Source: Lentibacillus sp. Marseille-P4043 (lineage in GTDB: Bacteria > Bacillota > Bacilli > Bacillales > Amphibacillaceae). From it: DNA of 64,000 nt. Under the pieces are notes generated by a model. It worked only from the letters and a program-made list of their open reading frames with translations, had not been told where the DNA came from and did not search any database. Shown one piece after another: positions 4,046-60,047 of the stretch. How positions within the stretch are numbered: the first letter of the stretch is position 1; each line of letters opens with the position of its first letter. The position numbers and the translations under genes were made by a program. The stretch is from assembly GCF_900258515.1 (NCBI RefSeq), contig NZ_LT984884.1, forward strand, positions 2,329,353 to 2,393,352, written 5' to 3'.

Positions 4046-5413
4046 GTGCGTGCACTATTTAGTAAACCACTTCGTACATATATGATTGGTATTTTATTGC
4101 TTGTCATTGCCACTGGTGCAGTAATTAGCCAATTAACAAATGCATATATTATTTTATTCTCTGTTTTAATCATTGAATTTATTGTTTTAGTTATTATATT
4201 ACTACATGTTTTCGAAAAATATATGAAGCCAATTAAGAAAGCTACAAGAACGGTTGATGAACTTGTAAAAGGAAATTACCGTGCGCGTATTCATCATCCG
4301 GCAGTTGGCAGTGTTGGTGAGCTGAGCAGTAAAATAAACATTTTAGCTCGAAACCTTAGCGAACTCTCTATTCAGGAAGAAATGCAAGAGAAACAATTAT
4401 TTACTGTTATTGATAACACGCAAAGTGGTTTAGTTTTAATTGATGAAAAAGGCTATGTACACCTTGTGAATCGGAAATTTATATCAATGTTTGGCGGAAC
4501 ATCACGTGATTACGTTGGTTACTTATATTATGATGTATTAGAGAATGAAAAGATTCATCAGACTGTTCAACAAACGTATCTATATGAGGAAACCGTCAAA
4601 GTGTCATTTACGCAAATAAAGGGCTTAGACAAAAAGTATATCGAAATAGTTGGTGCACCTATCTTTAATGAAAAGAAGATGTTAAAAGGATCTGTACTCG
4701 TTTTTTACGATATTACAGAATTAAAAAAATTGGAGATCATGCGCAAAGATTTTGTAGCAAATGTCTCCCATGAACTAAAAACGCCGATTACCTCGATCAA
4801 GGGATTTGCTGAAACATTATTGGATGGTGCGGCAAATGATGCTGCAACGCGTGAAAACTTTTTAGGTATTATCTTTGAGGAAAGTAAGCGGCTGCAAGTA
4901 TTAATTGAGGATTTGTTAACACTATCAAAGTTGGAAAAAGATGAATTCCGTTTACATGTTACAGAAGTAAATATGGAAGAACTAGCTCACAAGGTTCTTC
5001 CAATGATTAAACAACAAGCGGAAAGAAAACAAATCCAATTAACCGTTTCTCTAGCAGAAGGATTGGCAATTATGGCTGATGAAGATCGCATCAAGCAGGT
5101 GATTCTTAATCTTTTGGCTAATGCGATCAGCTATACATCAGAACATGGGAAGATATCTTTTATGATAAGTGAAGGTGAAGAACATATTCGAATTTCTGTT
5201 GCAGATACTGGTATAGGTATTCCACAGGACGCGATACCACGAATATTTGAACGCTTTTACCGTGTTGATAAAGCTCGAAGTCGGAATACTGGGGGAACTG
5301 GGTTAGGGCTAGCCATTGTGAAGCACATTGTAGAAGTTCACAATGGTGAGATAAAAGCAGCTAGTGAGCTAAATAAGGGTACAACCTTTGATGTTTATAT
5401 TCCTAAAAAATAA
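4046..5413 (+). CDS. phoR: Sensor histidine kinase PhoR, short form lacking the extracytoplasmic domain
   Basis: Partner kinase of PhoP. The GTG start lies two bases after the phoP stop, with GGAGGGG as ribosome site. Visible order: two adjacent membrane helices (about 12-30 and 34-54), a HAMP-like linker (about 55-110), a PAS domain (about 115-225), the dimerisation/H-box with His242 in SHELKTP, the N-box with Asn359, and the G boxes DTGIGI (387-392) and GGTGLGL (416-422). At 455 residues it is about 120 shorter than B. subtilis PhoR. The missing part is the large extracytoplasmic domain normally between the two helices; only a few residues separate them here. All catalytic boxes are intact, so it should be an active kinase sensing through its membrane or cytoplasmic PAS part. 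Confidence 0.9.
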   Translation: MRALFSKPLRTYMIGILLLVIATGAVISQLTNAYIILFSVLIIEFIVLVIILLHVFEKYMKPIKKATRTVDELVKGNYRARIHHPAVGSVGELSSKINILARNLSELSIQEEMQEKQLFTVIDNTQSGLVLIDEKGYVHLVNRKFISMFGGTSRDYVGYLYYDVLENEKIHQTVQQTYLYEETVKVSFTQIKGLDKKYIEIVGAPIFNEKKMLKGSVLVFYDITELKKLEIMRKDFVANVSHELKTPITSIKGFAETLLDGAANDAATRENFLGIIFEESKRLQVLIEDLLTLSKLEKDEFRLHVTEVNMEELAHKVLPMIKQQAERKQIQLTVSLAEGLAIMADEDRIKQVILNLLANAISYTSEHGKISFMISEGEEHIRISVADTGIGIPQDAIPRIFERFYRVDKARSRNTGGTGLGLAIVKHIVEVHNGEIKAASELNKGTTFDVYIPKK

Positions 5414-9792: not shown

Positions 9793-9824
9793 AAAAGCTC
9801 AGGTCCCGTAGCCTGAGCTTTTTT
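9793..9824 (+). terminator. Terminator after coaE
   Basis: AAAAGCTCAGG and CCTGAGCTTTT pair as an 11-bp stem with an 8-base loop, and the stem runs into a T-tract. Confidence 0.92.
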
Positions 9825-9861
9825 AATATCGTAATGTTTGTTGCTTTTTTATTTCGTAGTT

Positions 9862-10275
9862 GATATAAAATGCGACACAAATTGAGATGATGGACTACCG
9901 TTCCGGAAAAACACTTCGCTTTCCGCGGGCTCGCGCTGAGCCTCCTCGTGAGAAAACCGTTCACTGCGGGGTCTCATCGTCTTCGCTTTCCCGCAGGAGT
10001 CTTCGTGTTTTCCTTCACTGGTGTTGTATTTTGTCATCTTAATTCAATTATTTTGATGCTTGTCAAGGAAGTTTTAAAGCATAAATTTTCACTCACAAGC
10101 AGCCCGTATACACGTAGACTCCTGGGGGATGAGAGGCATAGGTGAGACCCCGCAGTGCGTTAGCACGAGGAGGCTCTCCAGCCGCCCCCCCGGAAAGCGA
10201 AGTGTATACGGGCTGCGGGGCGGATAGCGACAATCTATGCGAAATCACCATAGCACTTATTTCGCATTATATATC
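9862..10275. repeat. Palindromic repeat cluster 1 (two inverted units)
   Basis: This fills the gap between coaE and gapB. Unit A (9905-10013) starts GGAAAAACAC and ends GTGTTTTCC; inside are GCTTTCCGCGGGC on the left and CCCGCAGGAGTC on the right. Unit B (10101-10214) is the same plan in the opposite orientation, with GACTCCTGGGGG first and GGAAAGCG last, and is bounded by a perfect 13-bp inverted repeat AGCCCGTATACAC. The pair is flanked by imperfect outer inverted repeats GATATAAAATGCGA (from 9862) and TCGCATTATATATC (to 10275). No protein frame is credible here. I recognise the style as an intergenic repeat frequent in halotolerant Bacillaceae; its function is unknown to me. Confidence 0.8.
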
Positions 10276-10348
10276 TATTGTGTAAAACAACAATCGTTTA
10301 GAAGGTAGTCAAAAACAATTAAATTTAATAAGCACATTCTTCGATTAA

Positions 10349-34115: not shown

Positions 34116-34223
34116 CATCTATTTCACTCAACTTTCGCAGCGTGAAATGGACAAATAAGCCTTGATAAAATGAGGAAGGATGGAGATTCACTGCTCAAGT
34201 TGACTTTGGATTAATCACATTTT

Positions 34224-34761
34224 GATATAAACTACGACACAGTGAAAATTTTCTTTCGGGACGTTTTTTGTTCTTATGATGTTGAGTGCTTGGACTTTCG
34301 CTCCGGCAGAATACTTCGCTTTCCGTGGGCACGGCCTCAGCCTCCTCACGGAAAACCGCCGTTGCGGGGTCTTCGGACACGTGCTGTTCCCACAGGAGTC
34401 TACGTATTCTGCCTACGCTGGTAGTGGTGCTCTGATTATCGACAGGGGAAAGCCATGGAATCTAAGTAATGTTATACAGACTTTTACTCCCTTGAACAGA
34501 AAGCTATTCCAAGCTGCGGAAAAATGCGAGACTCCTCGAAAATGAAATACACATTTTCTTCGTGCGGTGAAGATTCAAGGATGCCTTTTCAAAGTTCAAT
34601 GGAACAAGGAACAGTCTGAAGACACCAAAGGAAGTGGTTTTCTTCCGAGGAGGCTGAAGCGTTCCCCATGGAAAGCGAGTATTTTTCCGCAGCGCTGGAT
34701 TAGCACTCATCTTATATAGAATGAGGGGGAGTCACGCAAAAGTTGTGTCGTATTCTATATC
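34224..34761. repeat. Palindromic repeat cluster 2 (two inverted units)
   Basis: Between pheT and rnhC (convergent). Unit C (34305-34413) is bounded by the perfect 10-bp inverted repeat GGCAGAATAC/GTATTCTGCC and contains CTTCGCTTTCCGTGGGC on the left and CCCACAGGAGTC on the right. Unit D (34513-34693) has the opposite orientation and a perfect 13-bp terminal inverted repeat GCTGCGGAAAAAT. The pair is flanked by outer inverted repeats GATATAAACTACGACAC (34224-34240) and GTGTCGTATTCTATATC (34745-34761), complementary at 15 of 17 positions. Short frames across it are artefacts. Confidence 0.82.
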
Positions 34762-34775
34762 TTTTGTGCACAAAA

Positions 34776-34821
34776 CCACAAATACTTTCGATGGGGCGAG
34801 TAATCGCAGTTCCAATCTTTT
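34776..34821 (-). repeat. Repeat module shared with cluster 3 (copy beside rnhC)
   Basis: Read on the minus strand, this holds AAAAGATTGGAACTGCGATT followed by ACTCGCCCCATCGAAA, nearly identical to 53783-53825. It lies just outside the right outer repeat of cluster 2. The rest of 34822-34930 is plain AT-rich sequence before the end of rnhC. Confidence 0.75.
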
Positions 34822-34931
34822 AGAAAACAATCTTTATGTTTACCAAGGTTGTCAAGGCAATTATTAGAACGTTCCAATTTTGCCTCAGCTAACTGTTTGA
34901 TCCTATTTTATTGCTCCGAAAGTTGAATGAT

Positions 34932-53326: not shown

Positions 53327-53767
53327 ATGAAATCAATTTCGTACATTGAGGATATGGAAAAGTGGAGAGAATCGTTTTCTTTTTTTATTCCAATTAAGAT
53401 CCGCTTCTCAGAGACTGACATGTATGGTCATGTTAATAATGTATCCCCATTTATTTACTTCGAGGAAGCTCGTATTGAATTTTTGAAGTCGATTGGATTA
53501 TTCAATAATGCACAGAATGAAGATGGCATACCAGTTGTCGCAGACTTACAATGTGATTACCATAAACAAATGTTTTTTAATGATAAGATAAACTTGTATG
53601 TAAAAGCGAATAGCATTGGAAACACTTCTGTAGACATTCACTATATGGCATTAGATGATAAAGAAGAACTAACATTGACTGGAAGAGGACGATTAGTACA
53701 TATTCATCCAGAAACCGGTAAACCAGTTGCATTAACTGAATCTATGAAACAAAAACTGAAACGTTGA
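53327..53767 (+). CDS. ysmA: Acyl-CoA thioesterase, 4HBT hot-dog fold (YsmA-like)
   Basis: A 146-residue hot-dog thioesterase. The catalytic loop reads IRFSETDMYGHVNNVSPFIYFEEARIEFL, with the Asp of the 4HBT family in ETDMYGHVNN. AAGGAG is seven bases before ATG 53327. Located between sdhB and gerE as ysmA in B. subtilis. The acyl substrate is unknown. Confidence 0.88.
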   Translation: MKSISYIEDMEKWRESFSFFIPIKIRFSETDMYGHVNNVSPFIYFEEARIEFLKSIGLFNNAQNEDGIPVVADLQCDYHKQMFFNDKINLYVKANSIGNTSVDIHYMALDDKEELTLTGRGRLVHIHPETGKPVALTESMKQKLKR

Positions 53768-53782
53768 TAAAGAGTGTTTACT

Positions 53783-53825
53783 AAAAGATTGGGACTGCGA
53801 TTACTCGCCCCATCGAAAACATTTG
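53783..53825 (+). repeat. Repeat module shared with 34776-34821
   Basis: AAAAGATTGGGACTGCGATT followed by ACTCGCCCCATCGAAAAC, repeated almost exactly in inverse orientation beside rnhC. Diverged forms lie inside both units of cluster 3 (54067-54110 and 54288-54331 minus). It lies directly left of cluster 3. Confidence 0.75.
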
Positions 53826-53842
53826 TTGTTTGTTACACAATA

Positions 53843-54461
53843 GCTATATAATGCGCAGTAATGAAGTTCTCTTTGGTGACACTTTCTTCCCGTTCCAATG
53901 GTATATGAGTACTTGGATTCGCTCCGTCAGAATACTTCGCTTTCCATGGGCACGGCCTCAGCCTCCTCGGAAGCAAAGAGCGCTTCCTTGAAAAAGAAAA
54001 CCACTTTTTCTGCGTGCGATGTAATACCACTGAAGTTTTCCTTGTCCTGCGGGGTCTTCGGGCTCGTGCTGGGGCTGCGCTAACTCGCCCCACCGAAGAC
54101 CATTGTTCTCATAGGACAAGGAATGCTTCGGCAGCATTACATCGCACGCAGAAAATCGAACTGTATTTTCAAGGAGTCTACGTATTCTGACTCCGCTAGT
54201 AGAAGTTCCCTAATTTTTGTGTAGATATAGCATGTATATCAAGTAATAGCACCTACTAGCGAAGGGAAAACACGTAGACTCCTGCGGGAACAATGGTTTT
54301 CGGTGGGGCGAGTTAGCGCAGCCCCAGCACGTGTCTGAAGACTTCGAAGCGGCGGTTTTCCGCTTCGGAGGCTGAAGCCGTGCCCGCGGAAAGCGTAGTG
54401 TTTTCCCGTAGCGGTTGTCAAAGCTCCGAACTTGATTTCTAGTTATTGCACATAATATATC
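53843..54461. repeat. Palindromic repeat cluster 3 (two inverted units, one nested)
   Basis: Between ysmA and gerE (convergent). Unit E (53926-54191) has the perfect 10-bp terminal repeat GTCAGAATAC/GTATTCTGAC and contains a nested 20-bp perfect inverted repeat, TTTTCTGCGTGCGATGTAAT (54006-54025) with its complement at 54136-54155. Unit F (54264-54407), in opposite orientation, is bounded by GGGAAAACAC/GTGTTTTCCC. Both contain an extra hairpin module GGGGCTGCG...CGCCCC. Outer inverted repeats: GCTATATAATGCGCAGTAAT at 53843 and TTATTGCACATAATATATC ending 54461. Frames across it encode low-complexity Arg/Pro/Ser and are not genes. Confidence 0.82.
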
Positions 54462-54508
54462 AACTACGCAATTAAAAAGTAATAAACATTACGAAAAGAG
54501 TTTTGATA

Positions 54509-59765: not shown

Positions 59766-60004
59766 TTAGAAGATGCCGGGCTACGTTGAACTCGAATAAT
59801 ATTTAATTGATACTAAATGCGGGTGTAGTTTAGTGGTAAAACCTCAGCCACGAGCAAAACATCCACCGAGTAAACTGCGAGTTGCCCCGAAGCACAAAAC
59901 AGCCTTGAATAAACTAGAAGATGTAGGGGCATGTTGAACGTAAATAAAATTTAATATTTAATTGATACTAAATGCGGGTGTAGTTTAGTGGTAAAACCTC
60001 AGCC
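59766..60004. repeat. Direct duplication covering the 5' half of tRNA-Gly
   Basis: Two copies, 59766-59849 and 59914-60004. The last 52 bases of each (59798-59849 and 59953-60004) are identical and end at the same tRNA position; the earlier part is similar (TAGAAGATG, then GTTGAAC) but diverged. The 64 bases between the copies have no recognised gene. Confidence 0.85.
59819..59849 (+). pseudogene. Truncated tRNA-Gly (5' half only)
   Basis: 31 bases identical to the start of the intact tRNA-Gly: 5' acceptor strand, D arm and left side of the anticodon stem. After CAGCC the sequence continues as ACGAGCAAAA, without anticodon, T arm or 3' acceptor strand, so no tRNA can form. It is transcribed from the same promoter. 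Confidence 0.85.
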
Positions 60005-60047
60005 TTCCAAGCTGATGATGAGGGTTCGATTCCCTTCACCCGCTCCA
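59974..60047 (+). tRNA. tRNA-Gly (anticodon TCC)
   Basis: Complete cloverleaf: acceptor GCGGGTG/CACCCGC, D arm GTTTAGTGGTAAAAC, anticodon loop CTTCCAA with TCC at 60006-60008, T arm AGGGTTCGATTCCCT. The 3' CCA is encoded (60045-60047). Reads GGA and probably other Gly codons. Confidence 0.97.

Follow-up and report, generated by a model that had tools for sequence, protein, structure and literature searches.

Several kinds of bacterial repeat bear comparison with the elements analysed here. In the REP and REPIN systems with their RAYT, as described in PMC3116915 and PMC3733652, two inverted palindromic units together form a replicating entity that is extragenic and present in high copy number. 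PMC11109978 reports MRSC-65-2, a mobile/repeat sequence candidate with over 20,000 representatives in diverse phyla and a conserved UYCCGG repeat; like the family described below, it has one long covarying stem and dozens of copies per genome, and in that account it is thought to be selfish and may act as DNA. The bcr repeats of Bacillus genomes are 100-400 bp long and reach tens to over a hundred copies (PMC6542083). A further parallel comes from RNA hairpins shaped by template switching, in which matched double changes arise in the stems, often without a G-U step (PMC8794818).

Hairpin units in the window

We analysed a 64,000-nucleotide stretch (the window) of the genome of Lentibacillus sp. 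Marseille-P4043 (the host). An earlier note on this DNA had reported six repeat units in three clusters, with ends that are self-complementary within each unit. We find all six, distributed over three intergenic clusters (the range 9862-10275 quoted in that note spans only cluster 1), and their ends match exactly in five of the six, with unit A carrying one extra A on the left, as the note stated. Each unit is a long imperfect hairpin whose outer arms vary between units and match within a unit. Inside the arms, the strands CGCTTTCC and GGAGTCT give an internal loop and an inner stem, and a variable tip follows.

Cluster 1 contains unit A (9905..10013, plus strand), with arms GGAAAAACAC (9905-9914, including the extra A) and GTGTTTTCC (10005-10013), and unit B (10099..10216, minus strand), with exact 15-bp arms GCAGCCCGTATACAC (10099-10113) and GTGTATACGGGCTGC (10202-10216). 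In cluster 2, unit C (34305..34413, plus) has exact arms GGCAGAATAC (34305-34314) and GTATTCTGCC (34404-34413), and unit D (34513..34693, minus) has exact 13-bp arms GCTGCGGAAAAAT (34513-34525) and ATTTTTCCGCAGC (34681-34693). Cluster 3 consists of unit E (53926..54191, plus), with exact arms GTCAGAATAC (53926-53935) and GTATTCTGAC (54182-54191), and unit F (54264..54407, minus), with exact arms GGGAAAACAC (54264-54273) and GTGTTTTCCC (54398-54407). Unit A was delimited from the sequence and a genome search, unit B from the sequence and its inverted repeat, and the other four from the sequence. The tip of unit E holds a nested palindrome (54006-54155) with 43-bp arms that are 86% complementary, and the tips of other units carry interchangeable hairpin modules.

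Outside the units lie inverted end zones of three kinds, to which no strand is assigned. The alpha-type zone of the cluster 1 element (9829..9888) is the inverted partner of that of the cluster 3 element (54435..54494, aligned with its siblings), and it adjoins a T-tract after the upstream gene, which we take from sequence and gene order to be coaE; the genes gapB and gerE were named presumptively in the same way. The beta-type zone of the cluster 2 element (34749..34837) is likewise the inverted partner of one in the cluster 3 element (53767..53855, aligned with its siblings). The third kind, CTCAACTTTCGCA at 34127-34139 and CGAAAGTTGA at 34917-34926, spans 34127..34926 and has the cluster 2 element nested inside it; sibling elements are enclosed in the same way.

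A search of the whole window against Rfam 15 at the gathering score gave four matches, none of them at the hairpin units, and a search of cluster 1 (9820-10320) with E-values up to 1 gave a single irrelevant match (E = 0.9). Elsewhere in the window there is a 53-bp exact direct repeat (59797-59849 and 59952-60004). The second copy extends into a tRNA gene (59974-60044), so the first, lying upstream, resembles a partial copy of a tRNA.

Copies in the host genome and in other bacteria

The host genome contains about a hundred or more copies of a short, apparently gene-free mobile element. A 14-base core, with at most one mismatch, has 187 matches in this genome and none for the reversed pattern, and a 16-base pattern with up to three mismatches occurs at 273 places in the 3.9-Mb genome, against 28 for the reversed pattern. 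By comparison, two genus-mates of the host have only 4 and 2 core matches. At least one core match is found in 150 of 159 genomes of the host's family, with a range of 0 to 255 per genome, the genomes with few matches being near the control; in a survey of the class, 248 of 398 genomes have at least one match, and counts of one to five are often at control level. Outside the host's family, 19 genomes have 20 or more matches where the control has at most 3 (judged by eye from the counts alone), and one of these 19, G287, has no exact core match. Only 5 of 72,556 plasmid records match (three from Priestia, one each from Radiobacillus and Bacillus); a longer query again gave 5 records, one of them in Niallia. 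Phage records gave no matches to the hairpin units.

To follow the arms through the genome we fetched 94 stretches besides the window, which yielded 198 left-motif matches; these loci come from the best 100 of the 273 places and are therefore biased towards a well-conserved left motif. When a unit offered more than one right-hand motif, the best-pairing one was taken, which favours pairing, and per-position shuffles served as the control. Counted in this way, 87 of the 198 have Watson-Crick pairs at 10 of 10 arm positions, so the complementarity within copies that the earlier note saw in six units goes beyond chance genome-wide. A further 41 have 9 of 10 pairs and 11 have 7-8; six or fewer pairs are seen in 43, and the right-hand motif is missing in 16. 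Among the 142 units with a near-exact right motif, approximately 19 low scorers fall into a single arm class, the CGGGTGG type, which scores low because its right-hand neighbour differs and the anchor missed the arm; by eye, this class also pairs (GTCCGGG ... CCCGGAC). Clearly non-complementary ends, which in large numbers would have spoken against the note's interpretation, are few. At least two units are true chimeras in which arms of different types are combined and pairing is lost, at genome positions 95396 and 2579079 (L034 and L084).

Covariation extends beyond the unit ends to the inner stem, whose two-base core matches in 115 of the 139 units that have at least 7 arm pairs (shuffled mean 39, maximum 54). 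Arm types fall into discrete subfamilies, and many copies are siblings.

Head-to-head pairs inside short transposons

The earlier note did not mention that the units form head-to-head pairs within transposons that have target duplications. Among neighbouring units less than 750 bp apart, the order is plus-minus in 87 cases, minus-minus in 6, plus-plus in 5 and minus-plus in 1. The two partners have the same arm type in only 1 of the 87 pairs, compared with a mean of 14 and a minimum of 5 in 2000 shuffles; this count makes no use of the A and B arm classes, and since several pairs are siblings the 87 are not independent cases. An A arm is paired with a B arm in 81 of the 87, a figure that is descriptive only because the two classes were drawn after the pairs had been viewed. 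The order recurs in other genera, where the arm types are different; in genome G059, for example, GGAAATACCCC is paired with GGGCAGC. Two loci of that genome (L238 and L239) are exceptions: each pairs two GGAAATAC-like units that can be told apart only at the inner end of the arm.

The hairpin pairs are the body of short, apparently non-coding transposons, with inverted ends of the MITE type and target duplications. These elements are approximately 600-800 bp long, and some that are 98-99% identical lie at unrelated sites. The commoner end type is GGCTSTTTTC, for which both ends were recognised in 35 of the 87 pairs and not in the other 52. Exact 8-bp target duplications flank 11 of the 35 two-ended pairs, where 0.06 would be expected from the flanks of different elements, and at least 7 of the 8 bases are duplicated in 15 of the 35 (0.47 expected). 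One set of elements ends in TAACGGGTTCTC and has duplications of 9-10 bp, by eye; TAACGGG ends occur in a set other than the GGCTSTTTTC elements, and a third inverted end, CTCAACTTTCGC, encloses some elements including cluster 2 of the window. The same hairpins thus occur inside elements with different outer ends. At the three elements of the window we saw no clean target duplication. In the youngest subfamily, conservation is about as high in the spacer as in the units on either side of it.

Related genomes provide empty sites. The gap between the presumed coaE and gapB genes, which is 620 bp in the host, is 120-145 bp and holds no unit in all three relatives compared (G057, G058 and G150). 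The sites of clusters 2 and 3 are short gaps in G150, and the cluster 3 site in G057 contains half a unit. For an element in G068, none of the matches listed in 27 other genomes of its genus spans both flank and element.

Some further observations concern the layout of the elements. Those with GGCTSTTTTC ends mostly combine an alpha end with a beta end (a crude rule assigns 26 of 35 in this way). The core can lie in either orientation between the ends, as if inverted across short GATATAWAATGCG repeats (L085 and L093 versus L031, L036, L043 and L052; subfamily 2+5). At the sites of clusters 2 and 3, G058 has other long repeats that share hairpin modules (L213 7450-8198 and L214 10778-11326).

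Searches for two kinds of transposase, ISL3 (PF01610) and Y1 (PF01797), identified no mobilising enzyme. We rejected an ISL3 transposase as the mover, as PF01610 is absent from the host genome. RAYT was rejected because the Y1 transposase is missing from several copy-rich genomes: PF01797 is present in 119 of 159 genomes, the host included, and was not found in G035 (134 matches), G078 (150), G066 (95), G028 (72) or G034 (54). Beside a TAACGGG end at genome position 1733089 there are three ORFs of 81-168 codons, none of them transposase-like by eye; the 168-codon ORF downstream of that end (L219 809-1315) presumably resembles a rifampin ADP-ribosyltransferase.

Covariation and rates of change in the stems

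An RNAalifold structure from 67 distinct units of five genomes has 26 pairs, 18 of them with two-sided changes. On this structure 95.2% of cells are paired, compared with 78.9% after shuffling, and 268 cells have double changes (94.5 shuffled). When the partners are slid by 1-3 columns, pairing falls to 35-59%. Complementarity spans the whole stem in several genera, and the sequence of the internal loop and bulge is conserved. At two of the pairs almost every unit has T-G (66/67 and 58/67), and further pair types are no more numerous than in shuffles (40 versus 39.3).

We handled relatedness by comparing only nearest copies; changes were counted within groups of units of identical length, leaving out any unit that contained an N or had too few arm pairs. 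Nearest copies in the host differ by 79 single changes at 4128 stem sites and by 174 changes at 2487 unpaired sites, so that the single-change rate in stems is approximately a quarter of that at unpaired bases, and compensated doubles number 36 against an expectation of 0.92. G059 has 8 compensated doubles, along with 3 single changes in 882 stem sites and 49 changes in 555 unpaired ones. Covariation, whose disappearance once phylogeny is accounted for would have told against the earlier note, therefore persists in the nearest-copy comparison as well as against slid partners.

Changes found in a single copy (private changes) are likewise less frequent in stems than in loops, with odds ratios of 0.18-0.49 and P between 2.7e-6 and 0.015 in 20 of 20 filter settings. 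Groups of fewer than four were left out of this test, as were both motif windows, because the fetched loci favour a conserved left motif. Two other settings gave P = 4e-8 and, when the grouping was wider and a less strict arm filter admitted chimeric units, P = 0.11. Private compensated doubles are few (three).

Maintenance of the fold is thus well supported. The earlier note had offered two possibilities, selection for a folded structure and a copying process by which palindromic ends are restored. The first part holds up well; for the second, template switching fits the compensated doubles, but switching alone leaves the rarity of uncompensated changes unexplained.

What keeps the arms matched

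The reading that we prefer, tentatively and with somewhat less than even confidence, is that the units are head-to-head imperfect hairpins forming the body of an apparently non-coding transposon with inverted ends and 8-bp target duplications, whose stems probably stay complementary because only copies that fold can move. The fold is suggested as a determinant of mobility because copy number differs sharply between relatives, insertions are unshared where examined, and the fold stays while the arms drift. It would act as DNA, either extruded or single-stranded, and a mobilising protein might read the invariant internal-loop strands CGCTTTCC and GGAGTC. Having different arms in one element would let each hairpin fold on itself rather than with its inverted neighbour. 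Selection would act when copies are made, and might fall on source copies or on every copy. The depletion of private changes leans towards maintenance of every copy after insertion rather than selection at copying; because siblings were left unsampled, the private-change test cannot prove selection on every copy. Also weighing against the preferred reading are the fruitless search for a mobilising enzyme among ISL3 and Y1 transposases, the lack of clean duplications at the three window elements, the 52 of 87 pairs in which both ends were not recognised, and the similar conservation of units and spacer in the youngest subfamily. As a helper step, template switching between the arms might turn one mutation into a matched pair.

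Template switching during replication might also act by itself, rewriting one arm from the other so that palindromes stay matched without any selection on the fold. The process is one described in PMC8794818, and several features of the doubles agree with it: they are seen even between copies that differ at only 4-7 sites, 10 of the 36 in the host adjoin another double, and 19 of the 36 are transversion swaps with no wobble route, the other 17 (47%) being wobble-capable. In the rRNA data of PMC8794818, the wobble-capable kind makes up 61% of instantaneous compensations. The doubles of G059, however, are wobble-capable in 7 of 8 cases. Unbiased rewriting moreover predicts about as many doubles as reversions, whereas the unpaired rate of 7.0% applied to 4128 stem sites gives approximately 289 changes, and only 79 singles and 36 doubles are seen. 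The single changes that are missing greatly outnumber the doubles, so template switching is unlikely to be the whole explanation, and rewriting of the arms does not account for the conserved sequence of the internal loop and bulge. We regard it as an unlikely explanation when taken alone.

It is equally doubtful that the hairpins are RNA elements (terminators, processing signals or stability signals) in transcripts of either strand, with each copy kept by the host. Such a role would account for the depletion of private changes in stems in all 20 settings, and of the clusters checked only one does not look intergenic. The head-to-head arrangement also means that a transcript of either strand would present the hairpins in one and the same order. 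Against this, the gene context is mixed: of 100 clusters, a crude ORF caller places 60 between codirectional genes, 23 between convergent and 12 between divergent ones, with 5 not assigned, and the same caller puts 10 clusters inside ORFs of 75-258 codons. The insertions are unshared between species where examined, the Rfam searches of the window and of cluster 1 found no match to the units, and there is no wobble bias.

This last point bears on which molecule folds, a matter on which the earlier note had spoken of DNA or RNA. Uncompensated changes comprise 21 G-T and 32 A-C mismatches (P = 0.17); one functional RNA strand should favour its own wobble, so this balance speaks against a single RNA strand. 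Of 96 units, 76 give a more stable RNA fold on the minus strand than on the plus strand. Taking folding energies and mismatch balance together, we found no convincing RNA strand bias, and the data leave DNA, or RNA from both strands, as the folding molecule. The greater stability of the minus strand and the two near-invariant T-G (in RNA, U-G) pairs keep a role for RNA in consideration.

That the matched ends were simply inherited, from a handful of palindromic subfamilies that expanded and that no process now maintains, agrees with the discrete arm-type subfamilies and their many sibling copies, but it is very improbable. Compensated doubles and the depletion of stem changes persist when the nearest-copy and private-change tests remove common descent, although one private-change setting fell to P = 0.11; the nearest-copy result refutes mere inheritance unless copies have recombined and so misled the nearest-copy trees.

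Going beyond the preferred reading of a transposon whose copies must fold to move, one could picture a genetic parasite coded by shape: a two-hairpin module, identified by its fold round a short invariant internal loop, that has spread through Bacillales by settling in transposon backbones whose ends are unrelated. Its hairpins would be orthogonal and would not cross-pair, and both arms would be rewritten by single template switches, so that the sequence drifts and the shape does not. We think it improbable that this whole picture is right.

Comparison with known systems

Among the top matches of open-access literature on intergenic repeats of Bacillaceae, Bacillus MITEs and structured repeats, we did not find this hairpin family described, and a description elsewhere is possible; a C. 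elegans study that contains the core strings was taken as a chance match. The family is widespread, and its covariation could mislead searches for structured RNAs. With its many sibling copies, and with loops and spacers as internal clocks, it offers a natural experiment in which selection on a fold can be set against copying from arm to arm. Another question it poses is which enzyme, if any, recognises one and the same hairpin in differently ended transposons.

The closest published item is MRSC-65-2, compared here by description alone, and the two may be kin. The CGCTTTCC strand is invariant in our 67 units, and the next bases are GG (TTCCGG) in only approximately 8 of the 67. The account of MRSC-65-2 that we compared (in PMC11109978) describes neither head-to-head heterotypic pairing nor target duplications. 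The bcr repeats are set apart, by description only, by a TTTAT motif and their restriction to the B. cereus group (PMC6542083). The template switches of PMC8794818 were described in RNA genes by ancestral reconstruction, whereas the stems here belong to a mobile repeat.

REPs are approximately 20-60 bp long with a GTAG or CGTC end tag, as described in PMC3116915 and PMC3733652, whereas our units exceed 100 bp. By eye, the unit listings show no constant tetranucleotide beside the arms. Membership of the REP/REPIN family with RAYT fails on this end tag and on the absence of Y1 from copy-rich genomes. A transposon of this size and inverted pairs of hairpins are nevertheless known kinds, and the hairpin element may still work like a REPIN.
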